From Bryobacterales bacterium (GTDB lineage: Bacteria; Acidobacteriota; Terriglobia; Bryobacterales; UBA6623), in the NCBI GenBank assembly GCA_022825595.1, contig JAJDWM010000161.1:1-34864 (forward strand): a DNA stretch of 34,864 nucleotides, in the 5' to 3' direction. The translations under genes were made by a program, and so were the position numbers. The notes under the pieces were generated by a model, which saw only the letters and a program-made list of their open reading frames with translations, was not told the DNA's origin and searched no databases. Positions 2,933 through 29,093 of this stretch are shown here, one piece after another (within the stretch, counting starts at the first letter, position 1; the number at the start of each line of letters is the position of its first letter).

Positions 2933-3637
2933 ATGCTCTTGCTAATCGCGGCGTTTTCCTTCGAATTCGCGGGCCTCCGATCGTGCAAGCCTTGCGCCAA
3001 GGCTGGCCTGCGCTGGGCTGCGACGCTGGATCTGGCGGGAGACCGGGCCATCTTGGTCGCTAACGGCGCGGGCCGCGCGCGTGCGTCCGCCGCCGCGCGA
3101 GCGATAGTGTCCAAGGAATCGGTTCGGGCTGTGATTTCGACCGGGTTCGCGGGTGCCCTGAACCCGTCTTTTCTGGCGGGCGACGTGTTCATCGCGGATT
3201 CCGTGCGCGGTGACGAGGGGGAGTTCGCAAGCCGGTCCCCCGCCGGGCCGCTCGGCGACGTGCGGCGCGGCGCGCTGCTGACCGTGGACCGGGTGGTGCA
3301 GTCAGCTTCGGCCAAGCGCGAGCTTTGGGGGCAGGGCGCCCAGGCCGTTGATATGGAGGCGTCATCGGTCGCCGCCGTGGCTAGGGAGCACGGCTTGCCA
3401 TTCTTCTGTATCCGGGCGATCAGCGATCTCGCCGCGGAGGACATGCCTGTGGACTTCGATCGCGCGATCCGCTCCGATGGCTCGCTGTCCGCGTGGAGCG
3501 TGATCGGACAGGCGCTGCGCGCACGCGGCCGTTGGCCGGGCCTGATGCGCCTGCGCCGCGATTCGGCGGCGGCAGCCCGATCATTGGGCGCGTGCCTAGG
3601 GCGCTGCGAGTTCCCCTTGCCAGCCAGCGGCGTATGA
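2933..3637 (+). CDS. Nucleoside phosphorylase-superfamily protein (MTA/SAH nucleosidase or HpnG-like)
   Basis: A 234-residue member of the purine nucleoside phosphorylase/uridine phosphorylase superfamily. The ribose/base-binding fold shows as STGFAGALNPSFLAGDVFIA (69-88). The substrate-binding VDMEASS motif lies at 139-145, with M141 and E142 the usual ribose contacts. RAISD (161-165) carries the conserved catalytic Asp165. Relatives cleave methylthioadenosine or S-adenosylhomocysteine; the short hopanoid-associated phosphorylases (HpnG) remove adenine from adenosylhopane to yield ribosylhopane. The compact size and the dehydrogenase partners make HpnG-like activity plausible but unproven, as no other hopanoid gene is present. 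Start ATG 2933 lacks a clear Shine-Dalgarno. The stop overlaps the next gene as ATGA (3634-3637). Confidence 0.75.
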   Translation: MLLLIAAFSFEFAGLRSCKPCAKAGLRWAATLDLAGDRAILVANGAGRARASAAARAIVSKESVRAVISTGFAGALNPSFLAGDVFIADSVRGDEGEFASRSPAGPLGDVRRGALLTVDRVVQSASAKRELWGQGAQAVDMEASSVAAVAREHGLPFFCIRAISDLAAEDMPVDFDRAIRSDGSLSAWSVIGQALRARGRWPGLMRLRRDSAAAARSLGACLGRCEFPLPASGV

Positions 3638-4701
3638 CGGTTCCTGAAGCCATGACTGCCGCGGTCTATCGCGGTCGGCAGACCGTCGTTCCCGAGTCGG
3701 TTGCCGTGCCGTCGATCGGACCCGGCGAACTGCTCGTTCGAGTCGAGGCCTGCGGCATTTGCCACACCGACCTGAAGAAGATCGAGCATGACTTGTTGCC
3801 CGCTCCAAGGATCTACGGGCATGAGACCGCCGGAGTCGTTGCCCAGGTCGGGGAGGGCGTCGACAGCTATGCGGTGGGGGATCGTGTGTGTTTCTTTCAC
3901 CACATTCCGTGCTTCGATTGCCACTACTGCCGCTTCCGTGACTATGCGCAGTGCCCGACATACAAGCGGGTCGGAGTGACTGCCGGTTTCGAGCCCGCCG
4001 GCGGCGGCTTCGCCCAGTACGTGAGGGTGATGGACTGGATCGTGCGCCGAGGGGTAGAGCGGATTCCGCCTCATGCCAGCTTCGAGCGCGCGACGTTCGT
4101 CGAACCGACCAACACCTGCCTGAAGGGCTTGGCGAAACTGGCCGCGGATCCCGACGAGAGCGTGCTAGTGATGGGGCAGGGCCCGATAGGGCTGCTCTTC
4201 ACGACGCTGCTGCGTCGGCAAGGCATCCGGTCGGTCTACACCAGCGACCGGCTGGATTCTCGTTTGGAACTGTCCCGCCAATTGGGTGCCGCCGAGGCCT
4301 GGGACGCTGCCGGCGATGTGGACCGCTGCGTTCGCCGAGTCTCTAGCGGCCGGGGCGTTGATGCTGTGATCGTGGCCGCATCGGCACCCGGAATCGTCGA
4401 ACAAGCCGTATCGCTGTCCCGTCGGGGCGGACGCGTGATGCTGTTTGCCCAGACCTCCCCCACGGAGCGCTTCGAACTCGACGGCAAGAGCCTGTGTGCC
4501 GAGGACCGCGCTGTGTTCGGTTCGTACAGCGCGTGCGCCGACTTGCAGTCCGAGTCTGCGGCCGCGGTCTGGGACCCCGACTTCCCGGCGGATGCGCTCG
4601 TCTCGCACCGATTTCGGCTGGACGAGTTCGAATCCGGCATGCGCTTGGCATCCCGGCCTCGAGAAGGTGCCTTGAAGCTGCTCGTCATGCCACAGGAGTG
4701 A
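3634..4701 (+). CDS. Zinc-dependent medium-chain alcohol dehydrogenase, probably NAD-linked
   Basis: A 355-residue medium-chain dehydrogenase/reductase of typical length. Catalytic-zinc ligands are visible: C43 in GICHTD, H63/E64 in YGHETAG, and E157 in VEPTNTCLKG. The structural-zinc lobe has four cysteines (93, 96, 99, 107; CX2CX2CX7C). The Rossmann loop is GQGPIG at 181-186. The following strand ends in an acidic residue (YTSDRLDSR, D205), which in this family usually favours NAD over NADP. The substrate is unknown. I chose ATG 3634 because it forms an ATGA overlap with the upstream phosphorylase gene; ATG 3652 is an alternative. It is the middle gene of a tight three-gene operon. Confidence 0.85.
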   Translation: MTVPEAMTAAVYRGRQTVVPESVAVPSIGPGELLVRVEACGICHTDLKKIEHDLLPAPRIYGHETAGVVAQVGEGVDSYAVGDRVCFFHHIPCFDCHYCRFRDYAQCPTYKRVGVTAGFEPAGGGFAQYVRVMDWIVRRGVERIPPHASFERATFVEPTNTCLKGLAKLAADPDESVLVMGQGPIGLLFTTLLRRQGIRSVYTSDRLDSRLELSRQLGAAEAWDAAGDVDRCVRRVSSGRGVDAVIVAASAPGIVEQAVSLSRRGGRVMLFAQTSPTERFELDGKSLCAEDRAVFGSYSACADLQSESAAAVWDPDFPADALVSHRFRLDEFESGMRLASRPREGALKLLVMPQE

Positions 4702-4702
4702 G

Positions 4703-5767
4703 ATGCAACCGCGGCGAGACATGCTGGCTTGCGTTCTGCATGGCCAAGAAGACCTCCGCATGGAGCGCGTTGCGGTTCCGACCGTGGGTCCGGCCGACCT
4801 GTTGGTCCGGGTCCGTGCCGCGCTCACCTGCGGGACCGACCTGAAGGTCTACCGGCGCGGGCACCACGCCCGCATGATCACCCTGCCGGCCGCGCTGGGC
4901 CACGAATTGTCCGGAGACGTCGTGGAGACTGGCTCGGCCGTGCGCTCGTTCAACGTCGGTGACCGCATCGTGGCGGCTAACTCGGCACCCTGCCACAAGT
5001 GCTTCTTCTGCCGCCAGGGCGAGAAGAACCTGTGCGAGAACCTGCTCTTCAACAACGGAGCCTACGCGGAGTACATCAGGATTCCCGGGCCTATCGTGGA
5101 CTGCAACACGCATATCCTCCCCTCCGAGGTCGACTACCGCGACGCCGCTCTGTCCGAGCCGCTGGCATGCGTGCTGAAGGGAATCGACGATACCGGGGTC
5201 AAACCTGGCGACACCGTCACCATCATTGGCCTGGGGCCGATCGGGCTGATGTTCGTGCGAGTCGCCAAGATCGCGGGGGCCCGCGTGATCGCTATCGGCA
5301 GGCGCCAGGTCCAGCTCGACAGGGCGGAGCATCTTGGAGCGGAGGTGTTGATCGAGTCGCATCGCGGCGACGACCCGACGGACGAGGTCCGGCGGCACAC
5401 CCGCGGCGGCAGGGGGTCGGACGCGGTGATCGAAGCGGTCGGCTCCCCGCACGCTTGGCGCCAGGCGGTATCCATGGTCCGCTCGGGCGGCAGGGTGAAT
5501 TTCTTCGGCGGATGCCCGAAGCAGACGGTCGTTTGCTTGGACACGGGCAGACTGCACTATTCCTCCCTCACCCTCAGAGCGACGTTTCACCACACGCCGG
5601 ACCACATCCGAGAAGCCTTGGAACTGATCAGTCGCGGCGAAGTGCACGCGCGCGACTTCATCGCGGGCGAGGTCCCGCTGACGGAGTTGGCCACGGCGTT
5701 CCGGCAGTGGGCGAGCCGTAGAGGCCAGCTCAAGATAGCCATCCTGCCCGACCACGGGCAGTCTTGA
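4703..5767 (+). CDS. Zinc-dependent medium-chain dehydrogenase (threonine/sorbitol dehydrogenase-like), possibly NADP-linked
   Basis: A 354-residue second medium-chain dehydrogenase, one base after the first one ends. Zinc ligands: C43 (LTCGTD), H67/E68 (LGHELSG) and E152 (SEPLACVLKG). Structural-zinc cysteines are 97, 100, 103 and 111. The Rossmann motif is GLGPIG (176-181). The second strand ends AIGRRQVQ, with arginines where the partner enzyme has an acidic residue, which suggests NADP use. AGGAG at 4694-4698 lies only four bases before ATG 4703; ATG 4721 (MLACVLHG), a more typical family N-terminus, may be the real start. Substrate unknown. It converges on the glnE-like gene with four bases between stop codons. 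Confidence 0.85.
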   Translation: MQPRRDMLACVLHGQEDLRMERVAVPTVGPADLLVRVRAALTCGTDLKVYRRGHHARMITLPAALGHELSGDVVETGSAVRSFNVGDRIVAANSAPCHKCFFCRQGEKNLCENLLFNNGAYAEYIRIPGPIVDCNTHILPSEVDYRDAALSEPLACVLKGIDDTGVKPGDTVTIIGLGPIGLMFVRVAKIAGARVIAIGRRQVQLDRAEHLGAEVLIESHRGDDPTDEVRRHTRGGRGSDAVIEAVGSPHAWRQAVSMVRSGGRVNFFGGCPKQTVVCLDTGRLHYSSLTLRATFHHTPDHIREALELISRGEVHARDFIAGEVPLTELATAFRQWASRRGQLKIAILPDHGQS

Positions 5768-5771
5768 GCGG

Positions 5772-8672
5772 CTAGCCCTCGCCGACGAAGTCTTGCAAGG
5801 CTGCCCTCACCCTGGCACAAGCGCCGTCCAAGCGAGCAGCGACGTCTCCGAAATCGTCCACCCCCGCCGCCTCGGCGAATGAGGGTCGCAGGCGCTTGGG
5901 GACGGCCGCGCCTCGCTTGTCCGCCTCGAGCAGGCAGTGGAGTGTCTGAACGCGCGTCATCAGCCGCCACGCGTCAGCGAGTCCCGTCGCCAGGTCGGTC
6001 GGAATCGCGCCAGACTCTGCAAGCTCCGCCAGCACGTCACCGGGCGTGGCGGCGGATCGGACCGAGGGATGCTCCGGAGCATGGCGGAGCCTGAAATAGT
6101 GCGTCAGGACCGCGATGTCGGCGAGGCCCCCGGGATGCTCCGCCACCGCCCGCGGATCGCCATCCGGCGAGGTGCCGCGCAGTCGCCCGATTGCTGCAGC
6201 GGCCTGTGCGCGCAAGGCTGAAGGGTCTCGGTGCTTCTCGAGGGCGGCGGACATGCTCTGCGAAACGCGCTCCGCCCCGTCTCCTATGCAGCACACGAGC
6301 CTGGGCCAGCACGGTGCCCGCCCGCTCCAGACGCCCTCGCTGAGCCTGGTTTGCAGGGCCTCGTAGCTCGCGGCGGGACCGTCGGTGGCACAGGCGTAGA
6401 TCTTGCGCCAACCCGGCTTCCCGCGGAGACCGCCCAGCAGCGCCGACTCGAGTCGCTGTGCAGAGGCGGATGCAGCTTGGCCGCTGCGGCCTTGGGCACT
6501 GCCGGCATCAAAGACAGCGATCTCGACCCCGGAGCCGACGTTCAGACACCGGCTGCCATAGTGGCCGGTGGCCAGGATCGCTATACCGGTACCAGCCGCA
6601 GACGCGTTCGAAGGTGTGATTTCGTCGCTTGCGCACTGTGCCAGAGCCGCAATCGCGCAATCTGCGATGTCAGAGAAGAGCGCTGACGCGTCCAGCGGAT
6701 CCAGCGCGTGGAACAAGACCCTTGCGCCGACCTTGAAGCGGGCTTCGTGGGTCCACTTCGAAATCTGCTGGACCCTGCCCTCGAAACCCATCACACCCGC
6801 CAGCGCGGCGGCCAAGCTCGCTTGCAGAGCGCCGCGATCGGGCGGAGACGAATCGGAATCCGGGTCGAGCAGGCTCTCGAGCAAGGACGGCCTCGCGGTC
6901 AGCAGCGCTCCGATCGCCGGTGCCGCGACCATGGTCTCGGCCACGGCCTCCAACACGTGCAGGTTGGCTTGGAAGAGGGTCAGCATGCCGTGCGCGTCTG
7001 GGATTCGGTCGATTAACTCGTCGAACCGGCGCAGGGCCAGGTCAGGATCCTCCGTCCCGCAGGAAGCAATCACGAGCGAGGGGATCAGGGACTGGAACAA
7101 TTCCAGCGCCCGGCGCTCTCGCGCCACGGTGTGCCGTCCCGTGCGCCATCGCTCCACAATGGCGAATGCTGCCGCTGGGTCGCGGTAGCCCATGCGTCCG
7201 AGCCTCTCCTCAGTTTCCGCCCGGCTGCGTCCGGACAGCGCTGACGAGGCGCTCGCAACCGTCATTTCGTGGGGCAGCTCGAAGAACGACTCGTACTGGT
7301 CCTCGACGTTGCGCAGGTGCCCGGTCAGGGCCTCGCGGAACGCTCGGCCGTCGGAGTATCCGAGAAACCGGGCCAAGATCTCGTAGTCGGCCTCTCTCTT
7401 CGGCAGCGAGTGCGTCTGGCGGTCGCCGACCATCTGGATGCGGTGCTCGACCCGGCGGAGGTACTCGTAGGCTGCGCCGAGCTTCTCGCTGGCGGAGTCC
7501 GGGATCCTGCCGGCCGCGGCGAGCGCCGCCAGCGAGTCGCAGGTGCCGATCAGGCGCAGCGAGGGGTCGGTGCCCCCCCAGACCAACTGGTGCGCTTGGG
7601 CGAAGAACTCGATTTCGCGAATGCCGCCCCGGCCGAGCTTGAGGTTCTGGCCGACCTCGCCGATCTGCCCGCCGCGGTGCTGCGCGTCGATCCGCCGCTT
7701 GGTCTCGTGCAGTTCCTGCACGGTGGCGAAGTCGAGGCTGTCACGCCACACGAATGACCCTAGCCGTTCCAAGAAGCGCTCGCCGGCGGCGATGTCGCCG
7801 GCGACCGGCCGCGCCTTGATCATCGCCGCGCGCTCCCATGTCTGGCCGCGCTTGGCGTAGTATTCCAAAGCTGCCTTGGTTGAGATGACCAGCGGCATGG
7901 ACACCGGATCGGGGCGAAGCCTGAGATCCACCGGGAACACGCGCCCCTCGATGGTGGGCTCGGCCAGCAGGTCGACGAACCGACGTGCTAACCGCATGAA
8001 ATGGGAGGGCGCCGCGTGGCGGTCCGCCAGCGGAGCCACGTCGGGATCGTACAGCAGTATGAGATCAATGTCGGAGGAGTAGTTCAGCTCCCTTCCGCCG
8101 AGCTTGCCCATCCCGATCACGATCAGGCCCGAGTCGTCTTCGCATACTTCACGCCCCTCGGCGAACGCTCCCTCGGCCGAGAGCCTGGCCAGTTGCGCGC
8201 GCAGGGCCACCGAGCAGGCCGCACGGGCGAACTCCGAGAGCGCGCCGGTCACCTCGCGCAGCGACCACATCCCTGCTATGTCGGCGAGCCCGACCGCCAG
8301 CGCGACGCGCCGACGTGCGCGGCGCAGCGTGCGCCCGACCTCCTGCTCGGAGGAGTCGACGGGGAGCGACAGCAAGCCGTCAACAATCGCGTCGACGCAG
8401 CGGTCCGGACCGCTCTTCCAGAGCTCGCGCACAAAGCCCTGGTGGGCTAACGCGCAGCTCTCCAGGAACGGGCTGGCCCCGCAGATGCATCGCAGCATGG
8501 CACCGCCGTCGGCTGATGCGGGGAAGTGCAGGGCGAAGTCCCGGTCCGCTCCCGGGCCGAGAGCGTTCGCGGCGTCGCTCCACTTTCTCAGGCCCACGGC
8601 CGCGCGGTCGGGGTTTGCCGGTGCCGGCCAAACGTCAGCGGCATTCAATCGACGCTCCGCCCGAGATGCCAT
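5772..8672 (-). CDS. glnE: Glutamine synthetase adenylyltransferase/adenylyl-removing enzyme, with degenerate C-terminal domain
   Basis: A ~966-residue GlnE homologue. GlnE attaches and removes AMP on glutamine synthetase in response to PII; in E. coli the N-terminal domain deadenylylates and the C-terminal one adenylylates. Residue numbers here count from an in-frame TTG at 8675; ATG 8672 is the better start. The N-terminal domain is intact: GMGKLGGRELNYSSDIDLI (188-206; D202, D204), VDLRLRPDP (249-257) and IREIEFFAQ (352-360). The equivalent C-terminal motif (698-722) reads LATGHYGSRCLNVGSGVEI, so the GKLGG loop and both catalytic aspartates are gone. The DxRLRP strand is also missing (~757-770). 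PGGLADIAVLTHYFRLRH (848-865) keeps the domain's fold signature. It is therefore probably mono-functional. The product is cytoplasmic. Confidence 0.85.
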   Translation of the reverse strand: MASRAERRLNAADVWPAPANPDRAAVGLRKWSDAANALGPGADRDFALHFPASADGGAMLRCICGASPFLESCALAHQGFVRELWKSGPDRCVDAIVDGLLSLPVDSSEQEVGRTLRRARRRVALAVGLADIAGMWSLREVTGALSEFARAACSVALRAQLARLSAEGAFAEGREVCEDDSGLIVIGMGKLGGRELNYSSDIDLILLYDPDVAPLADRHAAPSHFMRLARRFVDLLAEPTIEGRVFPVDLRLRPDPVSMPLVISTKAALEYYAKRGQTWERAAMIKARPVAGDIAAGERFLERLGSFVWRDSLDFATVQELHETKRRIDAQHRGGQIGEVGQNLKLGRGGIREIEFFAQAHQLVWGGTDPSLRLIGTCDSLAALAAAGRIPDSASEKLGAAYEYLRRVEHRIQMVGDRQTHSLPKREADYEILARFLGYSDGRAFREALTGHLRNVEDQYESFFELPHEMTVASASSALSGRSRAETEERLGRMGYRDPAAAFAIVERWRTGRHTVARERRALELFQSLIPSLVIASCGTEDPDLALRRFDELIDRIPDAHGMLTLFQANLHVLEAVAETMVAAPAIGALLTARPSLLESLLDPDSDSSPPDRGALQASLAAALAGVMGFEGRVQQISKWTHEARFKVGARVLFHALDPLDASALFSDIADCAIAALAQCASDEITPSNASAAGTGIAILATGHYGSRCLNVGSGVEIAVFDAGSAQGRSGQAASASAQRLESALLGGLRGKPGWRKIYACATDGPAASYEALQTRLSEGVWSGRAPCWPRLVCCIGDGAERVSQSMSAALEKHRDPSALRAQAAAAIGRLRGTSPDGDPRAVAEHPGGLADIAVLTHYFRLRHAPEHPSVRSAATPGDVLAELAESGAIPTDLATGLADAWRLMTRVQTLHCLLEADKRGAAVPKRLRPSFAEAAGVDDFGDVAARLDGACARVRAALQDFVGEG

Positions 8673-9037
8673 CAAGCCTTAGTGCCGCGTCAGCGTCTGC
8701 TGCGCCGTTGGCTCCCCGCCTAATCTTGACCGCCGCAGCGATCGGTACGGGGTAACTCCCCTGCTCGTACGTGCCACATCGTATCAGAAGCAGTGTCGTC
8801 GGCTGCGCTCTCGATGATTCGTAGCGGCCGACTTGGCGCTATGAGCGGGCGTGTGCGCTGCGCGGCCGAGAAGCTCGACGGCCGCAGGTGACAGCGGCTC
8901 GCGACTAGCTTGGCGATTGAGAGTCCTTTGGATGCGTCTGCGATATTGCATAATGTCAGCGTGGGCGTGAGCACTCACGGGCGGTTGCGAGTTCTTGCTG
9001 TCCGCGCATTCTGGATGTCTTTGAGCAAGAGGAATTC
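8673..9037. promoter_or_regulatory. Divergent promoter region between the glnE-like gene and the signalling operon
   Basis: A 365-bp stretch without a credible gene, separating two outward-facing transcription units, so it should hold both promoters. The best candidate for the rightward operon is a -10-like CATAAT at 8949-8954 with only a weak upstream match (TTTGGA at 8927-8932). No clear promoter or operator was found for the leftward gene. TAAGG lies upstream of ATG 8672 on the minus strand and could serve as a ribosome-binding site. Confidence 0.35.
9029..9032 (+). promoter_or_regulatory. Ribosome-binding site supporting GTG start at 9038
   Basis: AAGAGGAA (9027-9034, core GAGG) sits five bases before GTG 9038. 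This favours GTG over the in-frame ATG at 9050, which has no ribosome-binding site of its own. The mirror core is at 25833-25836. Confidence 0.65.
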
Positions 9038-10219
9038 GTGCCAAGTTCGATGCATGTAACGCCGAACGGGCCGCACCGCATCTTGGTGGTCGACGACGAA
9101 CCCGATCTGGAGCAATTGATCAGGCAGCGCATGAGGCGCGAGATCCGTTCCGGACAATTTGAGATGGAGTTCGCTTACAACGGCTTGGAAGCACTCGCCA
9201 AGCTAGAGAAGCTGGACCGTTTCGATATGGTGCTGTCGGACATCAACATGCCGAAGATGGACGGGCTGGCACTGCTGGAGCGGATTCCGACTGTCGATCC
9301 TGACGTGAAGGCAGTGATCGTGTCCGCCTACGGGGACATGAAGAACATTCGCACAGCGATGAATCGGGGGGCGTTTGACTTTGTCACCAAGCCGATCGAT
9401 TTCGGTGACCTGCGGGTGACGATCGACCGTACCTTGCAGAACTCGGCCGTCTGGCGGGAGGCGATGCAGTCCCGCAGTCAGTTGATGGCGTTAGAGAACG
9501 AACTTGACGTCGCCCGCCGGATGCAGGCTTCGATACTTCCGACAGAGTTTCCCAAGACGGACAGCTTCGAAGTGTACGCCAACATGCAGCCGGCCCGGGC
9601 GGTGGGCGGGGATTTCTATGATGTGCAGACCTTGGACCAATCACGCGTTGGAATGGCCGTCGCCGACGTCTCTGGCAAGGGTGTGCCCGCCGCACTATTC
9701 ATGATGTCAAGCCGAACGCTGCTCAAGGGTGCGGCGATCGGCTCTTCGGATCCAGCGATGGTGCTGACGACGGTCAACACCGTGCTCAGCGACGACAACT
9801 CAGAGATGATGTTCGTGACGGTGCTATACGCGGTGTTCGACCCTAAGACGCGTGCCTACACGTATGTTTGCGGCGGCCACGACGCGCCGGTGGTGGTGCA
9901 TGCCGATGGCAGCTCGACGCCGCTGCCGCACACGGGAGGTATTGCGCTGGGAGTACTGCCGAATGTGTCCTACCGGTCGCATACGGTGACGCTGGAGGAA
10001 GGCGACACGGTGCTGCTGTATACCGATGGGGTCACTGAAGCGCAGAACAGATCTGGCGAGCAGTTCGGCTTGGAGCGACTCCAAGAGGTCTTCCAAGAGG
10101 AGACGCCGTCTCGAGCGGAGGCGGCCACCCGAATGGTGTTCCAAGCAGTGCGGGACTTCGCAGGGACGGCGCCGCAGTTCGACGACATCACGTGCTTGGC
10201 GCTGTGTCAGCGGGGGTAG
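9038..10219 (+). CDS. Response regulator with PP2C-type (SpoIIE/RsbU) serine phosphatase output
   Basis: A 393-residue two-domain cytoplasmic regulator. Residues ~13-130 form a CheY-like receiver: acidic pair D19/D20, phospho-acceptor D68 in MVLSDINMPKMDG, S95 in VIVSAYGD and K118 in FVTKP. A helical linker (~140-165, LENELDVARRMQASILP) is typical of RsbU-like phosphatases. Residues ~180-393 are the SpoIIE/PP2C domain, with metal-binding aspartates in VGGDFYDV, VADVSGKGVPAAL, LLYTDGVTE and FDDITCLAL. This family dephosphorylates STAS anti-anti-sigma proteins and so frees a sigma factor. It heads a four-gene operon; the kinase at its end is the likely phosphodonor (inference). The start is GTG. 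Confidence 0.93.
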   Translation: MPSSMHVTPNGPHRILVVDDEPDLEQLIRQRMRREIRSGQFEMEFAYNGLEALAKLEKLDRFDMVLSDINMPKMDGLALLERIPTVDPDVKAVIVSAYGDMKNIRTAMNRGAFDFVTKPIDFGDLRVTIDRTLQNSAVWREAMQSRSQLMALENELDVARRMQASILPTEFPKTDSFEVYANMQPARAVGGDFYDVQTLDQSRVGMAVADVSGKGVPAALFMMSSRTLLKGAAIGSSDPAMVLTTVNTVLSDDNSEMMFVTVLYAVFDPKTRAYTYVCGGHDAPVVVHADGSSTPLPHTGGIALGVLPNVSYRSHTVTLEEGDTVLLYTDGVTEAQNRSGEQFGLERLQEVFQEETPSRAEAATRMVFQAVRDFAGTAPQFDDITCLALCQRG

Positions 10220-10225
10220 GTGGCG

Positions 10226-10639
10226 ATGGCGGACCAGGTCAGTCTCAATCTAGAGTCGAGCCTAGAATCCTTGAGCCAGATCGAGCGGGAGGTCGCAGCA
10301 TTTGGGGCCGAGCACGGATGGCCGGCTGACCTGCTCTTCCACGTCCAATTGGTGCTGGATGAGCTGGCAACGAACGTGATCAATCACGGGTACGGCGCAA
10401 GTGGGCACGAATTCCAGATCACGATCAAGTCCAAGCCGCAGGCCGTACGCATCGAAATGGTGGACGAAGCGCGACCGTTCGATCCGCTGCAGGATGCCCC
10501 GAATCCGACCACCGATGCGAGCTTGGAAGAGCGGGAGGCGGGTGGACTGGGAGTGCATATCGCCAAGCAGCTGATGGACGAGATGGAATACAGGCGCGAG
10601 GACGGCAAGAACCGTCTGACACTCGTGAAGAATCGCTGA
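10226..10639 (+). CDS. RsbW-like ATP-binding anti-sigma/serine kinase
   Basis: A 137-residue GHKL-fold ATPase domain protein of the RsbW/SpoIIAB type. The N-box is LVLDELATNVINHGYG (43-58, E46 and N50). The ATP-lid region includes VDEARPFDP (79-87). The G-box is REAGGLGVHIAKQLMDEM (103-120). Members bind and inhibit a sigma factor and phosphorylate a STAS antagonist, the opposite reaction to the phosphatase encoded immediately upstream. ATG 10226 follows TAGGTGG; GTG 10220 is an alternative two codons earlier. It lies six bases after the phosphatase stop and two bases before the binding-protein gene. No STAS protein is encoded in the window. Confidence 0.88.
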   Translation: MADQVSLNLESSLESLSQIEREVAAFGAEHGWPADLLFHVQLVLDELATNVINHGYGASGHEFQITIKSKPQAVRIEMVDEARPFDPLQDAPNPTTDASLEEREAGGLGVHIAKQLMDEMEYRREDGKNRLTLVKNR

Positions 10640-10641
10640 AG

Positions 10642-11808
10642 ATGGGCAGGTTTGGCAGAACCGCTGGGGTCGTTGCGCTGTGGATGGCGCTGGCAGCCGG
10701 CACGGCAACCGCACAGGGCTTGGAAGCGGAGGAGCAGACAGTACTGTTCGGGCAGTCAGCTCCATTGAGTGGCCCGGCACAGCAGCTGGGCAGCGATGCA
10801 CGAGCCGGGATCTTGGCGGCGTTCGCGGAGGCCAACCGCAAGGGCGGAGTGCACGGACGCAAGCTCGAGCTGCTGTCACTGGACGACGCCTACGAGCCTG
10901 CCAGCGCACTGGCCAACACCGAAAGCCTGATCGAGGATCACAACGTCTTCGCACTAATTGGCTCGGTAGGCACGCCGACCACGGTGGTGGCGGTGCCAGT
11001 GGCGGCCGAGGCCGGGGTGCCCTTCATCGCGCCTGTGACGGGTGCCGAGTTCCTGAGAGACGACCACTGGACTACTGTTATCAACCTGCGGGCGTCGTAC
11101 TTTCAGGAGACGCGTGAAATTGTCACACGGCTCGTCGAGGATCTTGGCGTCGAGCGCATCGCGGTGTTGTATCAGGACGATTCCTACGGTCGCGCCGGGC
11201 TGAACGGCGTGCAAGCTGCTCTGAAGGAGCGTGGCCTGGAACAGGTCGCCGTGGGGGTGTACACCCGCAACACGACGGCAGTGAAGACGGCGCTGTTGGA
11301 GCTGCGCGCCGCCGCGCCCGGGGCGGTGGTTTTGATTGGAGCCTATAGTCCGGTGGCGACGGCGATCCAATGGGCTAGGTACATCGGTATGGACGCCGTG
11401 TTCGCGACGGTATCATTCAGCGGCACCAACGCGCTTGCGGAGGCCATGGGGGCGCGCGGACAAGGAGTGTACGTGACTCAGGTCGTGCCCTTTCCGTCGC
11501 CGACATCGCCAATCGCACGGGCTTATCTGGCGGCCCTGCGAGCGAACTCGCGCGGATCGTTTCCGAGCTTCGTTTCGTTCGAGGGTTACTTGGCGGGCCG
11601 CCTAGCGATCGCGGGCTTGGAACGGACCGGGCCGAGTCTGGATCGGACAGAATTCCTCCGCCAAGTGCTTGACGGTCCGCCGATCGACCTGCACGGCTTC
11701 CGCCTGAGCTACGGTGGCGACGACAACCAAGGCTCGGACCAAGTCTTTCTGACGGTGATCGGCCCTAGTCTGGCCTACGAAGCAGCCCAAAAGATGGAGC
11801 GCCAATAG
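10642..11808 (+). CDS. Periplasmic type I solute-binding protein (LivJ-like), probable sensor component
   Basis: A 388-residue exported binding protein. Residues 1-~25 are a signal peptide (MGRFGRTAGVVALWMALAAG, then T-A-T-A-Q). The mature chain has the Peripla_BP_6/LivJ signature: VLFGQSAPLSGPAQQLG (34-50), GGVHGRKLELLSLDD (68-82), ALIGSVGTPTTVVAVPVAAE (103-122) and VLYQDDSYGRAG (176-187). This family binds amino acids, amides or related small molecules. No ABC permease or ATPase gene is nearby. It sits between a partner-switching kinase and a membrane histidine kinase with spacings of two and three bases, so it more likely presents ligand to that kinase than feeds a transporter (inference). 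The ligand is unknown. Confidence 0.9.
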   Translation: MGRFGRTAGVVALWMALAAGTATAQGLEAEEQTVLFGQSAPLSGPAQQLGSDARAGILAAFAEANRKGGVHGRKLELLSLDDAYEPASALANTESLIEDHNVFALIGSVGTPTTVVAVPVAAEAGVPFIAPVTGAEFLRDDHWTTVINLRASYFQETREIVTRLVEDLGVERIAVLYQDDSYGRAGLNGVQAALKERGLEQVAVGVYTRNTTAVKTALLELRAAAPGAVVLIGAYSPVATAIQWARYIGMDAVFATVSFSGTNALAEAMGARGQGVYVTQVVPFPSPTSPIARAYLAALRANSRGSFPSFVSFEGYLAGRLAIAGLERTGPSLDRTEFLRQVLDGPPIDLHGFRLSYGGDDNQGSDQVFLTVIGPSLAYEAAQKMERQ

Positions 11809-11811
11809 CCT

Positions 11812-14046
11812 ATGGCCGACCTCGGGCGGCTCGTGCGCAAGCTGAGCCTGGGGCGCGTGCAAGCCCGCTTGCGCGATCTGCCGCTGGTGTCCGGCCAGCG
11901 TGTCAAGCGCTTGGCGGGAGCGCGGCGGGGCATCGCCGTGCAGATGTATCTGGGACTCGGCGGGGCCGCGTCTTTGACCGCTATGGCCAGCGTGGTCGCG
12001 CTGATCTCGTTCAACGAAGTGCGGCAATCGCAGGAGGTCATGAATCAGAGGACCGTGCCGGACATGGCCGCGGCGTTTGCCGTCGCGCAGCGCGTCGGGG
12101 CATTGGTTGATGCGGCGCCGTCGCTGACCGTGGTCGATTCGGTCGATCTGTTTGAAGAGCGCCGTCAACAGATCGGTGAGCAACTGCGCGTCTTCGAAGA
12201 GAGCCTGCAGGTACTGGCCGGGCGCCGGGGAGAGAGCGAGGGCATTCGGCGGATCCGTGTCCGGGGGCGCGAGATGTCGACCAACATGCAGGCAATCGAA
12301 GTCTCCCAAGAGCGGGCGTTCGAACTGGCGGGGCAGCGCACCGCGATCAGCGAGCAGATCGCGCGCATCGACGCCGCGCTCACCAACCTCGTCATCTCGA
12401 TCATCGACGACCAGTTCTTTTACACGATGACGGGCTACCTGAATCTAGGTGAGCCGCCGGTCCCGCGAGCGACGCACCTTACGGAGCAGGAGGTCACGCG
12501 CTACCGCCTAATGGCTGAGTTGCGCGAGGGCGCGGCCGTGACCAGCCAGCTCGTCGCCAATGCGACGGCGATCTCTGACGAGGCCGAATTGCGCACCCTG
12601 CTGGATCGCTTCGAGGCGGCTTCGAGCCGCACGCTGCGCAACCTGAACCAGATCGGCGAACTGCAATCCGGAGACGAGATCATCGCGCTCTTTCGCGAGC
12701 TCTTCGAGCTGTCTACCGGGCCGGGCGGCTTGCTGGAAGTGCGCCAGCAGGAACTGGAGGTGCTCGGCCAGCAAGGCGCGCTGCTGGACCGCAACCGCGA
12801 GATCGCGACGGGCTTGGTGGTCGAAGTCGAGGGCTTGGTGGCCGGTCTGCGCTCCAGCACACAGCTTGCGGCACAGTCCTCCGCGGAGGCGATCCAGACG
12901 GCCATCCAGCGGCTGCTGGGGCTGAACTTGGTCACGCTGGCCGGCGCCGCCGTGATCGGCTGGCTGTTCGTCGGCCGGCATCTCTTGCGCCGCCTGCACA
13001 AGCTTTCCTCAACCATGCTGAACATGGCCGGGGGCGATCTCGAGAAGGAAGTGGAGGTGGAGGGTTCGGACGAGGTGGCCGACATGGCGCAGGCCTTGGA
13101 GGTATTCCGGCGGCACGCGCTGGAAGTGCAACGCTTGAACCTGGTCGAGAAGCTGGCAGAGGACCTCAAGGGCAAGAATCTGGAGCTGGAGGGCGTCTTG
13201 GCGGACCTGCGCACAGCACAGGACCAGATCGTCATGCGTGAGAAGCTGGCGGCGCTGGGCGAATTGACGGCCGGCGTGGCGCATGAGATCAAGAACCCGC
13301 TGAACTTCGTGAAGAATTTCTCGGAAGTCTCGCAGGAACTGCTCACCGAGCTGCAAGAGGCGCTGCCGGACGGAGACGAACCGCTCACCAAGGAGCAGCG
13401 AGAGGAATTGGCCGATATCTGCGATTACCTGACAGGGAACCTGGAGCGGATCCACGGGCACGGCGAGCGTGCGAACCGGATCGTGAACGATATGCTGATG
13501 ATGGGGCGCGGTTCAAACGAATGGCGCCCGACCGGGATCAACCGCTTGGTCACCGAGCATGCCAATCTGGCCTACCATAGCGCTCGGGCCACCGATTCGA
13601 ATTTCCAGCTGAGCATCGAGGAGGACCTAGACGAGCGCGTGGGAGAAGTGGACGCTGTCCCGCAAGACTTGGGGCGGGTGGTCCTGAACATGGTTTCCAA
13701 CGCCTGCCACGCCACCAACGAGAGGCGGGTATCCGGACAAGAGGCAGGCTATGCCCCCACCCTGAAGATTCGCACGGTGGACGCCGGAGACAGGTACGAG
13801 ATTCGCATTCGGGACAATGGCCACGGCATTCCGGACGAGGTGCTAGAGAAGATGTTCAATCCCTTTTTCACGACCAAGCCTACCGATCAGGGCACGGGGC
13901 TGGGCTTGGCGCTGTCAAACGACATCGTGCGCGAGCACGGCGGCGAGATTCGCGTAGAGACTGCAGTTGGCGAATTCACCGAAATGATCGTCGACTTGCC
14001 GAAACATGCGAACGTCGCCGCCCACGGTGACGGAGAGGGCGAGTAG
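11812..14046 (+). CDS. Membrane sensor histidine kinase with large helical periplasmic domain and HAMP
   Basis: A 744-residue sensor kinase. TM1 is at ~45-67 and TM2 at ~368-392, enclosing ~300 periplasmic residues rich in charged, heptad-like helical sequence. A HAMP domain (~390-445; MAGGDLEKEVEVEGSDEVAD) and a coiled coil (~440-482) lead to the kinase core. This has the H-box ELTAGVAHEIKNPLNFVKNF (484-503, H491), the N-box LNMVSNACHATN (625-636), IRDNGHGIP (666-674), NPFFTTKPTD (683-692) and GTGLGLALSNDI (694-705). Long all-helical periplasmic domains paired with a type I binding protein are known from TorS/TorT. Here the binding-protein gene ends three bases upstream. It has no C-terminal receiver or phosphotransfer domain, so phosphate probably goes directly to the receiver-phosphatase. 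Confidence 0.92.
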   Translation: MADLGRLVRKLSLGRVQARLRDLPLVSGQRVKRLAGARRGIAVQMYLGLGGAASLTAMASVVALISFNEVRQSQEVMNQRTVPDMAAAFAVAQRVGALVDAAPSLTVVDSVDLFEERRQQIGEQLRVFEESLQVLAGRRGESEGIRRIRVRGREMSTNMQAIEVSQERAFELAGQRTAISEQIARIDAALTNLVISIIDDQFFYTMTGYLNLGEPPVPRATHLTEQEVTRYRLMAELREGAAVTSQLVANATAISDEAELRTLLDRFEAASSRTLRNLNQIGELQSGDEIIALFRELFELSTGPGGLLEVRQQELEVLGQQGALLDRNREIATGLVVEVEGLVAGLRSSTQLAAQSSAEAIQTAIQRLLGLNLVTLAGAAVIGWLFVGRHLLRRLHKLSSTMLNMAGGDLEKEVEVEGSDEVADMAQALEVFRRHALEVQRLNLVEKLAEDLKGKNLELEGVLADLRTAQDQIVMREKLAALGELTAGVAHEIKNPLNFVKNFSEVSQELLTELQEALPDGDEPLTKEQREELADICDYLTGNLERIHGHGERANRIVNDMLMMGRGSNEWRPTGINRLVTEHANLAYHSARATDSNFQLSIEEDLDERVGEVDAVPQDLGRVVLNMVSNACHATNERRVSGQEAGYAPTLKIRTVDAGDRYEIRIRDNGHGIPDEVLEKMFNPFFTTKPTDQGTGLGLALSNDIVREHGGEIRVETAVGEFTEMIVDLPKHANVAAHGDGEGE

Positions 14047-16870: not shown

Positions 16871-17994
16871 GAGCGCGAATCTTGGAACCTGAAAAACAAG
16901 GGAATTAGGCAAGCATGCATGTCGCGAAGCTCTACTTATCAAGACTCCCGAAGTGGCAAATCATCACAGTCCTTTTTGCGGGCGCGACAATTCGGGGCTG
17001 CAATCTCTCGATTTAGCCGACGAGTTTCCTATCCCCAGTCTCCGGGTAGACGGAAAGTTCGTGTGGGACGCCTAGTCGGACGGCGGAAGCCGCACTCTCG
17101 CCGGGCCGGGTGGCTTCGTTCGTCCTGACGCAAGTTCCATCCCGAGGGCATCGACAGCGTCGGGCCGAACACTGTGGACTGCGGCGGAGCACGAAATGTG
17201 AGCGATGCCGCTGTGGGACTAGGATCGGGCCGCAAGACGCTTTCGCCTGTGATTCACGGACAATCTGGCCAGCGACAACTACTTTGGCCGGCGTGTTGCC
17301 TCATTTCCGGATGTTACCCACCGTCCTCACAAAGATGCTACCGCCTCTCCGGTGAGGGTTGCAGCCACCGGATCCTCTGTTGGTGGTTCGTGGCCAGCCC
17401 TCCGCAAGGGACGGAGCAGTGGCGGGCGCGGTACCGCGCCCGCCACTGCTCCGTCCCTTGCGGAGGGCTGGCCACGAACCACCAACAGAGGATCCGGTGG
17501 CTGCAACCCTCACCGGAGAGGCGGTAGCATCTTTGTGAGGACGGTGGGTAACATCCGGAAATGAGGCAACACGCCGGCCAAAGTAGTTGTCGCTGGCCAG
17601 ATTGTCCGTGAATCACAGGCGAAAGCGTCTTGCGGCCCGATCCTAGTCCCACAGCGGCATCGCTCACATTTCGTGCTCCGCCGCAGTCCACAGTGTTCGG
17701 CCCGACGCTGTCGATGCCCTCGGGATGGAACTTGCGTCAGGACGAACGAAGCCACCCGGCCCGGCGAGAGTGCGGCTTCCGCCGTCCGACTAGGCGTCCC
17801 ACACGAACTTTCCGTCTACCCGGAGACTGGGGATAGGAAACTCGTCGGCTAAATCGAGAGATTGCAGCCCCGAATTGTCGCGCCCGCAAAAAGGACTGTG
17901 ATGATTTGCCACTTCGGGAGTCTTGATAAGTAGAGCTTCGCGACATGCATGCTTGCCTAATTCCCTTGTTTTTCAGGTTCCAAGATTCGCGCTC
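16871..17994. other. Central region without a convincing gene, spanning the dyad
   Basis: Both inner arm ends (16871-17432 and its mirror) hold only short, low-quality open frames. One stretch on the plus strand (about 17019-17075, ADEFPIPSLRVDGKFVWDA then stop) and another from about 17152 (starting DSVGPNTVDCGGA) read like scraps of coding sequence in different frames, so a decayed gene is possible. Frames crossing 17432/17433 exist only because of the junction. The promoter of the exported-protein genes should lie at the outer edges of this region. Confidence 0.5.
17421..17444. other. Dyad centre / junction of the inverted repeat
   Basis: The two arms meet with zero spacer between 17432 and 17433, inside GGTACC (17430-17435). 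The inner ~24 bases are almost purely G/C. A short self-complementary core like this is where an assembler could join a contig to its own reverse complement, where a polymerase could switch template, or where a hairpin end would be read through. The sequence does not discriminate among these. Confidence 0.9.
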
Positions 17995-25827: not shown

Positions 25828-26192
25828 GAATTCCTCTTGCTCAAAGACATCCAGAATGCGCGGACAGCAAGAACTCGCAACCGCCCGTGAGTGCTCACGC
25901 CCACGCTGACATTATGCAATATCGCAGACGCATCCAAAGGACTCTCAATCGCCAAGCTAGTCGCGAGCCGCTGTCACCTGCGGCCGTCGAGCTTCTCGGC
26001 CGCGCAGCGCACACGCCCGCTCATAGCGCCAAGTCGGCCGCTACGAATCATCGAGAGCGCAGCCGACGACACTGCTTCTGATACGATGTGGCACGTACGA
26101 GCAGGGGAGTTACCCCGTACCGATCGCTGCGGCGGTCAAGATTAGGCGGGGAGCCAACGGCGCAGCAGACGCTGACGCGGCACTAAGGCTTG
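25828..26192. promoter_or_regulatory. Mirror copy: divergent promoter region
   Basis: Exact copy of 8673-9037, between the signalling operon and the glnE-like gene. No credible gene and only weak promoter candidates (the mirrored -10-like hexamer is at 25911-25916). Confidence 0.35.
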
Positions 26193-29093
26193 ATGGCATC
26201 TCGGGCGGAGCGTCGATTGAATGCCGCTGACGTTTGGCCGGCACCGGCAAACCCCGACCGCGCGGCCGTGGGCCTGAGAAAGTGGAGCGACGCCGCGAAC
26301 GCTCTCGGCCCGGGAGCGGACCGGGACTTCGCCCTGCACTTCCCCGCATCAGCCGACGGCGGTGCCATGCTGCGATGCATCTGCGGGGCCAGCCCGTTCC
26401 TGGAGAGCTGCGCGTTAGCCCACCAGGGCTTTGTGCGCGAGCTCTGGAAGAGCGGTCCGGACCGCTGCGTCGACGCGATTGTTGACGGCTTGCTGTCGCT
26501 CCCCGTCGACTCCTCCGAGCAGGAGGTCGGGCGCACGCTGCGCCGCGCACGTCGGCGCGTCGCGCTGGCGGTCGGGCTCGCCGACATAGCAGGGATGTGG
26601 TCGCTGCGCGAGGTGACCGGCGCGCTCTCGGAGTTCGCCCGTGCGGCCTGCTCGGTGGCCCTGCGCGCGCAACTGGCCAGGCTCTCGGCCGAGGGAGCGT
26701 TCGCCGAGGGGCGTGAAGTATGCGAAGACGACTCGGGCCTGATCGTGATCGGGATGGGCAAGCTCGGCGGAAGGGAGCTGAACTACTCCTCCGACATTGA
26801 TCTCATACTGCTGTACGATCCCGACGTGGCTCCGCTGGCGGACCGCCACGCGGCGCCCTCCCATTTCATGCGGTTAGCACGTCGGTTCGTCGACCTGCTG
26901 GCCGAGCCCACCATCGAGGGGCGCGTGTTCCCGGTGGATCTCAGGCTTCGCCCCGATCCGGTGTCCATGCCGCTGGTCATCTCAACCAAGGCAGCTTTGG
27001 AATACTACGCCAAGCGCGGCCAGACATGGGAGCGCGCGGCGATGATCAAGGCGCGGCCGGTCGCCGGCGACATCGCCGCCGGCGAGCGCTTCTTGGAACG
27101 GCTAGGGTCATTCGTGTGGCGTGACAGCCTCGACTTCGCCACCGTGCAGGAACTGCACGAGACCAAGCGGCGGATCGACGCGCAGCACCGCGGCGGGCAG
27201 ATCGGCGAGGTCGGCCAGAACCTCAAGCTCGGCCGGGGCGGCATTCGCGAAATCGAGTTCTTCGCCCAAGCGCACCAGTTGGTCTGGGGGGGCACCGACC
27301 CCTCGCTGCGCCTGATCGGCACCTGCGACTCGCTGGCGGCGCTCGCCGCGGCCGGCAGGATCCCGGACTCCGCCAGCGAGAAGCTCGGCGCAGCCTACGA
27401 GTACCTCCGCCGGGTCGAGCACCGCATCCAGATGGTCGGCGACCGCCAGACGCACTCGCTGCCGAAGAGAGAGGCCGACTACGAGATCTTGGCCCGGTTT
27501 CTCGGATACTCCGACGGCCGAGCGTTCCGCGAGGCCCTGACCGGGCACCTGCGCAACGTCGAGGACCAGTACGAGTCGTTCTTCGAGCTGCCCCACGAAA
27601 TGACGGTTGCGAGCGCCTCGTCAGCGCTGTCCGGACGCAGCCGGGCGGAAACTGAGGAGAGGCTCGGACGCATGGGCTACCGCGACCCAGCGGCAGCATT
27701 CGCCATTGTGGAGCGATGGCGCACGGGACGGCACACCGTGGCGCGAGAGCGCCGGGCGCTGGAATTGTTCCAGTCCCTGATCCCCTCGCTCGTGATTGCT
27801 TCCTGCGGGACGGAGGATCCTGACCTGGCCCTGCGCCGGTTCGACGAGTTAATCGACCGAATCCCAGACGCGCACGGCATGCTGACCCTCTTCCAAGCCA
27901 ACCTGCACGTGTTGGAGGCCGTGGCCGAGACCATGGTCGCGGCACCGGCGATCGGAGCGCTGCTGACCGCGAGGCCGTCCTTGCTCGAGAGCCTGCTCGA
28001 CCCGGATTCCGATTCGTCTCCGCCCGATCGCGGCGCTCTGCAAGCGAGCTTGGCCGCCGCGCTGGCGGGTGTGATGGGTTTCGAGGGCAGGGTCCAGCAG
28101 ATTTCGAAGTGGACCCACGAAGCCCGCTTCAAGGTCGGCGCAAGGGTCTTGTTCCACGCGCTGGATCCGCTGGACGCGTCAGCGCTCTTCTCTGACATCG
28201 CAGATTGCGCGATTGCGGCTCTGGCACAGTGCGCAAGCGACGAAATCACACCTTCGAACGCGTCTGCGGCTGGTACCGGTATAGCGATCCTGGCCACCGG
28301 CCACTATGGCAGCCGGTGTCTGAACGTCGGCTCCGGGGTCGAGATCGCTGTCTTTGATGCCGGCAGTGCCCAAGGCCGCAGCGGCCAAGCTGCATCCGCC
28401 TCTGCACAGCGACTCGAGTCGGCGCTGCTGGGCGGTCTCCGCGGGAAGCCGGGTTGGCGCAAGATCTACGCCTGTGCCACCGACGGTCCCGCCGCGAGCT
28501 ACGAGGCCCTGCAAACCAGGCTCAGCGAGGGCGTCTGGAGCGGGCGGGCACCGTGCTGGCCCAGGCTCGTGTGCTGCATAGGAGACGGGGCGGAGCGCGT
28601 TTCGCAGAGCATGTCCGCCGCCCTCGAGAAGCACCGAGACCCTTCAGCCTTGCGCGCACAGGCCGCTGCAGCAATCGGGCGACTGCGCGGCACCTCGCCG
28701 GATGGCGATCCGCGGGCGGTGGCGGAGCATCCCGGGGGCCTCGCCGACATCGCGGTCCTGACGCACTATTTCAGGCTCCGCCATGCTCCGGAGCATCCCT
28801 CGGTCCGATCCGCCGCCACGCCCGGTGACGTGCTGGCGGAGCTTGCAGAGTCTGGCGCGATTCCGACCGACCTGGCGACGGGACTCGCTGACGCGTGGCG
28901 GCTGATGACGCGCGTTCAGACACTCCACTGCCTGCTCGAGGCGGACAAGCGAGGCGCGGCCGTCCCCAAGCGCCTGCGACCCTCATTCGCCGAGGCGGCG
29001 GGGGTGGACGATTTCGGAGACGTCGCTGCTCGCTTGGACGGCGCTTGTGCCAGGGTGAGGGCAGCCTTGCAAGACTTCGTCGGCGAGGGCTAG
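26193..29093 (+). CDS. glnE: Mirror copy: GlnE-like adenylyltransferase with degenerate C-terminal domain
   Basis: Exact copy of 5772-8672. N-terminal nucleotidyltransferase domain intact; the C-terminal domain lacks the GKLGG loop, both catalytic aspartates and the DxRLRP strand. ATG 26193 follows TAAGG; an in-frame TTG directly precedes it. Confidence 0.85.
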   Translation: MASRAERRLNAADVWPAPANPDRAAVGLRKWSDAANALGPGADRDFALHFPASADGGAMLRCICGASPFLESCALAHQGFVRELWKSGPDRCVDAIVDGLLSLPVDSSEQEVGRTLRRARRRVALAVGLADIAGMWSLREVTGALSEFARAACSVALRAQLARLSAEGAFAEGREVCEDDSGLIVIGMGKLGGRELNYSSDIDLILLYDPDVAPLADRHAAPSHFMRLARRFVDLLAEPTIEGRVFPVDLRLRPDPVSMPLVISTKAALEYYAKRGQTWERAAMIKARPVAGDIAAGERFLERLGSFVWRDSLDFATVQELHETKRRIDAQHRGGQIGEVGQNLKLGRGGIREIEFFAQAHQLVWGGTDPSLRLIGTCDSLAALAAAGRIPDSASEKLGAAYEYLRRVEHRIQMVGDRQTHSLPKREADYEILARFLGYSDGRAFREALTGHLRNVEDQYESFFELPHEMTVASASSALSGRSRAETEERLGRMGYRDPAAAFAIVERWRTGRHTVARERRALELFQSLIPSLVIASCGTEDPDLALRRFDELIDRIPDAHGMLTLFQANLHVLEAVAETMVAAPAIGALLTARPSLLESLLDPDSDSSPPDRGALQASLAAALAGVMGFEGRVQQISKWTHEARFKVGARVLFHALDPLDASALFSDIADCAIAALAQCASDEITPSNASAAGTGIAILATGHYGSRCLNVGSGVEIAVFDAGSAQGRSGQAASASAQRLESALLGGLRGKPGWRKIYACATDGPAASYEALQTRLSEGVWSGRAPCWPRLVCCIGDGAERVSQSMSAALEKHRDPSALRAQAAAAIGRLRGTSPDGDPRAVAEHPGGLADIAVLTHYFRLRHAPEHPSVRSAATPGDVLAELAESGAIPTDLATGLADAWRLMTRVQTLHCLLEADKRGAAVPKRLRPSFAEAAGVDDFGDVAARLDGACARVRAALQDFVGEG

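Follow-up and report, generated by a model that had tools for sequence, protein, structure and literature searches.

GlnE2, the GlnE-like paralogue described here, is probably a horizontally acquired second GlnE in which the C-terminal domain has become a pseudoenzyme and the N-terminal deadenylylase is the sole working site, acting one way to activate glutamine synthetase (GS). GlnE is the founding AMPylation enzyme and carries two opposed activities in one chain. In E. coli, the C-domain of GlnE AMPylates GS and the N-domain deAMPylates it (PMC12409994), and deAMPylation by AT-N requires phosphate and gives ADP (PMC3656104). Loss of the adenylylating active site from GlnE2 is well supported by sequence alignment. 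The activity, substrate, direction and regulation of the protein are what we infer, with adenylylated GS (GS-AMP) as the likely substrate on the grounds of homology.

Domain layout and active sites of GlnE2

The open reading frame (ORF) lies on the minus strand at 5772-8672 of the window (the whole stretch of DNA that was analysed, 34,864 bases) and encodes 966 amino acids plus a stop. The start is an ATG at 8672, preceded by a TTG at 8675, and the stop occupies 5772-5774. The features are as follows.

5772..8672, minus strand: GlnE-like paralogue (GlnE2); PF03710 at 233.6 bits, NF010706 at 657.6 bits
7278..8495, minus strand: N-terminal (deadenylylase-type) nucleotidyltransferase and helical domain, about aa 60-465, intact; 56/59 near-invariant residues, foldseek
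8058..8114, minus strand: GMGKLGGRELNYSSDIDLI, aa 187-205, with D201/D203 equivalent to E. coli D173/D175; alignment, motif search
7911..7928, minus strand: DLRLRP, aa 249-254, with the third catalytic Asp, equivalent to E. coli D223; alignment, motif search
6708..7265, minus strand: central (regulatory-type) helical region, about aa 470-655; dN/dS about 0.1, the slowest-evolving part within the genus
5775..6707, minus strand: C-terminal nucleotidyltransferase-fold domain, about aa 656-966, predicted to be catalytically dead; 10/25 near-invariant residues, AlphaFold2 (AF2) model
6519..6575, minus strand: degenerate motif LATGHYGSRCLNVGSGVEI, aa 700-718 (E. coli D701 to G, D703 to E); alignment
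6387..6410, minus strand: site of the deleted DxRLRP strand (E. coli D752), about aa 755-762; alignment
26190..29093, plus strand: mirror copy of the GlnE2 ORF (assembly artefact); the window equals its own reverse complement

Membership of the GlnE superfamily is seen in PF03710 (GlnE), which is matched in two stretches at 233.6 bits against a curated cut-off of 24, the weaker second stretch scoring 44.9 bits; PF08335 is also matched. The best NCBIfam model is that of the alphaproteobacterial bifunctional GlnE, NF010706, which aligns along aa 17-965, and the score of 657.6 bits lies below the cut-off of 724, placing GlnE2 outside this equivalog. Active-site residues were assigned in an alignment of GlnE2 and its orthologues with GlnE of E. 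coli K-12 (NC_000913.3), 77 alphaproteobacterial GlnE and 17 canonical ones, all complete, from the same order, and residues conserved at 97% or more in 95 bifunctional GlnE were taken as near-invariant. The window GlnE2 keeps 56 of 59 such residues in its N-domain and 10 of 25 in its C-domain. All three N-domain carboxylates are kept (E. coli D173, D175 and D223, here D201, D203 and D249), and the G-x11-DxD plus DxRLRP of the N-terminal site of bifunctional GlnE is present as GMGKLGGRELNYSSDIDLI and DLRLRP, as a preliminary description of this DNA had claimed. Its account of the C-terminal counterpart is also borne out by the alignment to E. coli: both catalytic aspartates are replaced at LATGHYGSRCLNVGSGVEI (D701 by G, D703 by E), and the second metal-binding strand, the D752 strand (DARLRP) with the third carboxylate, is a gap. 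The C-terminal adenylyltransferase site thus lacks D701, D703 and D752 alike. An intact DxD with the full motif was found elsewhere in the C-domain of no GlnE2 member, nor was any other G-x11-DxD or DxRLRP, the sole full pair being that of the N-domain. A displaced DxD in the C-domain of the G007 copy, where a DVD sits two residues further on, was rejected, as an ungapped fit leaves the D703 equivalent only; the sister of this copy, on contig C127 of the window's own bin, reads DVE at this point. Both C-terminal aspartates are kept in 77 of 77 alphaproteobacterial GlnE and in all complete canonical GlnE of the Bryobacterales.

Judged by its residues, the N-domain carries the N-type (deadenylylase) signature. 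The preliminary description had offered a takeover of adenylylation by the N-domain as one possibility; this is not needed and gains no positive support from a domain with an N-type signature and 56 of 59 near-invariant residues unchanged. One warning sign is at R221 (E. coli numbering), two positions before the catalytic D223, where the window clade and G003 have Pro and G014 and G007 have Arg. This R221P change beside the catalytic strand may alter the activity of the N-domain.

Both nucleotidyltransferase folds of bifunctional GlnE are predicted to be present in GlnE2. The AF2 model of the whole protein has a pLDDT of 83.5 and a pTM of 0.56, with an uncertain domain arrangement, and foldseek aligns it at a TMt of 0.84 to 1v4a, the E. 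coli AT-N fragment (the isolated deadenylylase domain). The middle and C-terminal half, modelled by itself, reaches a pTM of 0.87 and a TM of 0.74 to the E. coli adenylyltransferase domain 3k7d; the AF2 alignments included alphaproteobacterial homologues, and the predicted fold is partly expected from them.

Distribution, origin and genomic setting

Genome searches found 11 GlnE2 members, 48-98% identical, with the mirror copy left out. Orthologues at 87-98% occur in six close relatives (G001, G002, G004, G005, G009 and G010; G005, JAJDZN010000072.1, and G002, JAJEHF010000208.1, are Bryobacterales in the public records), and more distant members in G003 (54%), G014 (51%), G007 (48%) and the G007-like copy on C127 (48%). 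G003 and G014 are near-complete assemblies. The relatives share the loss: 11 of 11 members have no D752 strand and carry G, E or L at the D701 position, and the D703 equivalent is E in nine, the G007/C127 pair keeping Asp. Since all 11 share it, the loss is old and not a sequencing error. GlnE2 is confined to two genera, both in a single family of the Bryobacterales; 10 of the order's 257 genomes have it, and none was found in the other 395 genomes of an even draw across the Acidobacteriota. In G003 and the close relatives the gene is flanked by a dehydrogenase gene and an RsbU-like gene; G007 and G014 carry it elsewhere. In G008, a relative on a single contig, the gene has been lost: the syntenic place (L147, 9320-9933) holds only pieces that correspond to aa 6-93 and about 864-958 and include a stop. 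In G006 the neighbouring genes abut with no remnant between them. GlnE2 is therefore dispensable, since G006 is without a copy and G008 has remnants only.

In a maximum-likelihood tree of the N-domain and middle region, GlnE2 forms one clade (100/100). In the same tree, where similarity to the query had guided the choice of alphaproteobacterial sequences and the sole other outgroup was E. coli, its grouping with alphaproteobacterial GlnE has support of 100/99, and the canonical GlnE of the Bryobacterales falls elsewhere. Its N-domain has a median identity of 48% to alphaproteobacterial GlnE and 31% to canonical Bryobacterales GlnE. Placement and identities together imply that GlnE2 was acquired horizontally from an alphaproteobacterial-type source. 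Transfer as a block with its neighbours was rejected, the alphaproteobacterial loci having only glnE in common with the window. Carriage on a plasmid or virus was likewise rejected: no plasmid match at 60% identity or more, and no viral relative, was found.

The neighbours of GlnE2 (two zinc dehydrogenases, a phosphorylase, an RsbU/RsbW-type pair, a periplasmic binding protein and a histidine kinase) give no pointer to nitrogen metabolism. At 9038-14046, divergent from GlnE2, lies an operon-like run of a response regulator with SpoIIE phosphatase, an RsbW-like ATPase, a Peripla_BP_6 protein and a HAMP histidine kinase, conserved in most of the genus. At 2933-5767 are a phosphorylase (PNP_UDP_1) and then two zinc-dependent dehydrogenases, a set that stays adjacent in genomes with or without GlnE2. 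Sigma-54 promoter-like sites show no excess in the window (36 matches against 37 expected), and none lies in the intergenic stretch upstream of GlnE2.

Resident GS control, proposed function and alternatives

Canonical GlnE, complete and with its two active sites, is encoded separately in the six closest relatives and in G003, G007 and G014. GlnE2 as the only GlnE of its genome was accordingly rejected; by sequence it is a second, alphaproteobacterial-type paralogue beside the canonical one. The putative target is in place as well: all 11 genomes of the genus carry one type I GS, of the adenylylatable kind, with the DKDIYDL tyrosine that is the adenylylation site of E. coli-type GS and for which the preliminary description had advised looking. 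The PII T-loop tyrosine is present in all sampled copies of the genus, and GlnD was found in the genus, with fragments only in the incomplete bin G000. Two PII genes lie near glnD in G001, G002, G004, G005, G009 and G010 (L199/L192, L202/L191, L188/L197), on separate contigs in G005; G003, G006, G007, G008 and G014 have one each. Given the complete canonical GlnE of the relatives, the cells should still adenylylate GS, and GlnE2 would be an addition. The earlier claim that the protein is unable to adenylylate thus stands for the usual domain, whose active site is lost, and falls where the protein was taken for the genome's own GlnE. Compensating decay of the N-domain in canonical GlnE was rejected, as every complete copy, with GlnE2 present or not, retains 50-51 of the 51 conserved residues.

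Selection can be followed along the protein. All 11 copies have open ORFs, even those at 48% identity. Nei-Gojobori dN/dS in the close cluster is 0.14-0.19 for the N-domain, 0.10-0.15 for the middle region and 0.24-0.29 for the C-domain, and between G007 and its C127 sister 0.09, 0.03 and 0.32, respectively. The upper 95% bounds of all these values are below 0.45, and canonical GlnE is mostly at 0.05-0.1. On the strength of open ORFs, a persisting predicted fold and low dN/dS, GlnE2 is judged to be maintained under selection, the dead C-domain being the least constrained part, under a constraint that is relaxed but real. The slowly evolving middle region fits a central regulatory domain.

With the C-terminal adenylyltransferase of this acquired second GlnE turned into a pseudoenzyme, the one working site left would be the N-terminal deadenylylase. 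GlnE2 would most likely act on the cell's single GS by phosphorolysis (GS-AMP + Pi -> GS + ADP), freeing the adenylylated tyrosine of AMP and leaving adenylylation to the canonical bifunctional GlnE. The central region, and possibly the dead C-domain too, could serve as a scaffold or as a sensor of PII, glutamine or 2-oxoglutarate. GlnE2 would then be a one-way 'on' switch that moves GS to its active form, expressed independently of the bifunctional GlnE and under separate control. The fuller version, a dedicated deadenylylation-only, full-length paralogue that was acquired horizontally, works in parallel to the resident bifunctional GlnE and uses its dead domain as an allosteric sensor, is put forward tentatively. 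Against the deadenylylase reading, canonical GlnE already has an intact deadenylylase domain, and an extra one is not strictly needed; the D703 equivalent retained in the C-domain of G007/C127 also counts against it, as do the R221P change, the dispensability of GlnE2 and its neighbours.

The state of the contig itself must also be considered. The window is a perfect palindrome, its 34,864 bases equal to their own reverse complement with zero mismatch about an axis at 17432/17433, so every gene is present twice and the real content is 17,432 bp. This structure is an assembly artefact. The window contig (C462) is 97.6% identical to G005 over 11.3 kb, and the other tested genes of its bin (GS, PII, pieces of canonical GlnE on C524/C746, and C127) are 88-93% DNA-identical to G007; the bin contigs compared with C462 were C348, C4, C127, C524 and C746. 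C462 is probably a contaminant in its bin, misbinned from a G005-like organism, which leaves the GlnE2 finding unaffected because G005 and other relatives carry the gene on other contigs. A self-complementary contig in a mixed bin could suggest that the substitutions come from misassembly. This is scarcely credible, as the same losses recur in six relatives (87-98% identity), where the gene lies on other contigs, and in the two near-complete assemblies, G003 and G014, at 51-54%. For the gene, misassembly is refuted by the 10 further copies on other contigs, and it stands for the palindromic structure only.

Other functions can be proposed for GlnE2. A neofunctionalised N-domain, transferring a nucleotide to or removing one from another target unrelated to GS, would suit a lineage-specific paralogue next to a complete canonical GlnE, with R221P by the catalytic strand in the window clade and with neighbours that are dehydrogenases and a stress operon of RsbU/RsbW type instead of nitrogen genes. 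It is unlikely, however, for a domain that retains 56 of 59 GlnE-conserved residues and has a median identity of 48% to alphaproteobacterial N-domains. Alternatively, the acquired gene could be heading for loss, drifting to a pseudogene with its C-domain first, as the relaxed C-domain, the mere remnants in G008, the clean absence from G006 and the patchy distribution might suggest; the intact ORFs of all 11 copies, some as little as 48% identical, and dN/dS well below 1 throughout, dead domain included, make this quite unlikely. Very unlikely is a regulatory pseudo-subunit for which catalysis is irrelevant both ways, and which titrates PII or GS or pairs with and modulates canonical GlnE: a middle region that is the slowest-evolving within the genus and a C fold predicted to be retained without catalysis would agree with it, but it leaves unexplained why the N-domain catalytic residues are fully conserved in all members.

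Significance and comparison with known systems

The opposed action of the two GlnE halves makes the signalling between them difficult to study. The GlnE2 family is a natural separation-of-function variant, in which one catalytic site appears to have been removed and the fold and central region kept, and can be useful for asking what the C-domain contributes beyond catalysis. Its presence further suggests that in some Acidobacteriota a single GS is under two controls working in parallel. No report of a second, half-dead GlnE was found in the open-licence literature.

Like the alphaproteobacterial bifunctional GlnE (NF010706/PRK14108), GlnE2 has two nucleotidyltransferase-fold halves around a central helical region, alignable over aa 17-965, and its N-domain is about 48% identical. 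It differs in its destroyed C-terminal active site, its score below the family cut-off and its coexistence with a canonical GlnE; its C-domain is about 25% identical to the alphaproteobacterial one, whereas the median between one reference alphaproteobacterial GlnE and the others is 49%. With the E. coli AT-N fragment (1v4a) it shares an intact N-type site, and one working active site is expected, but GlnE2 is a natural full-length protein that is not truncated and retains the middle region and the dead C-fold. The canonical Bryobacterales GlnE has the same overall domain order, yet keeps both sites intact, is about 31% identical in the N-domain and branches separately in the tree. The closest precedent found comes from G. 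sulfurreducens, whose glnE is remarked to be possibly inactive from a C-terminal deletion (PMC2700814). There too the damage is limited to the C-terminal domain; however, that gene is one species' glnE, in a gat operon, whereas GlnE2 is a second, apparently horizontally acquired copy, found in several species with an intact GlnE alongside.
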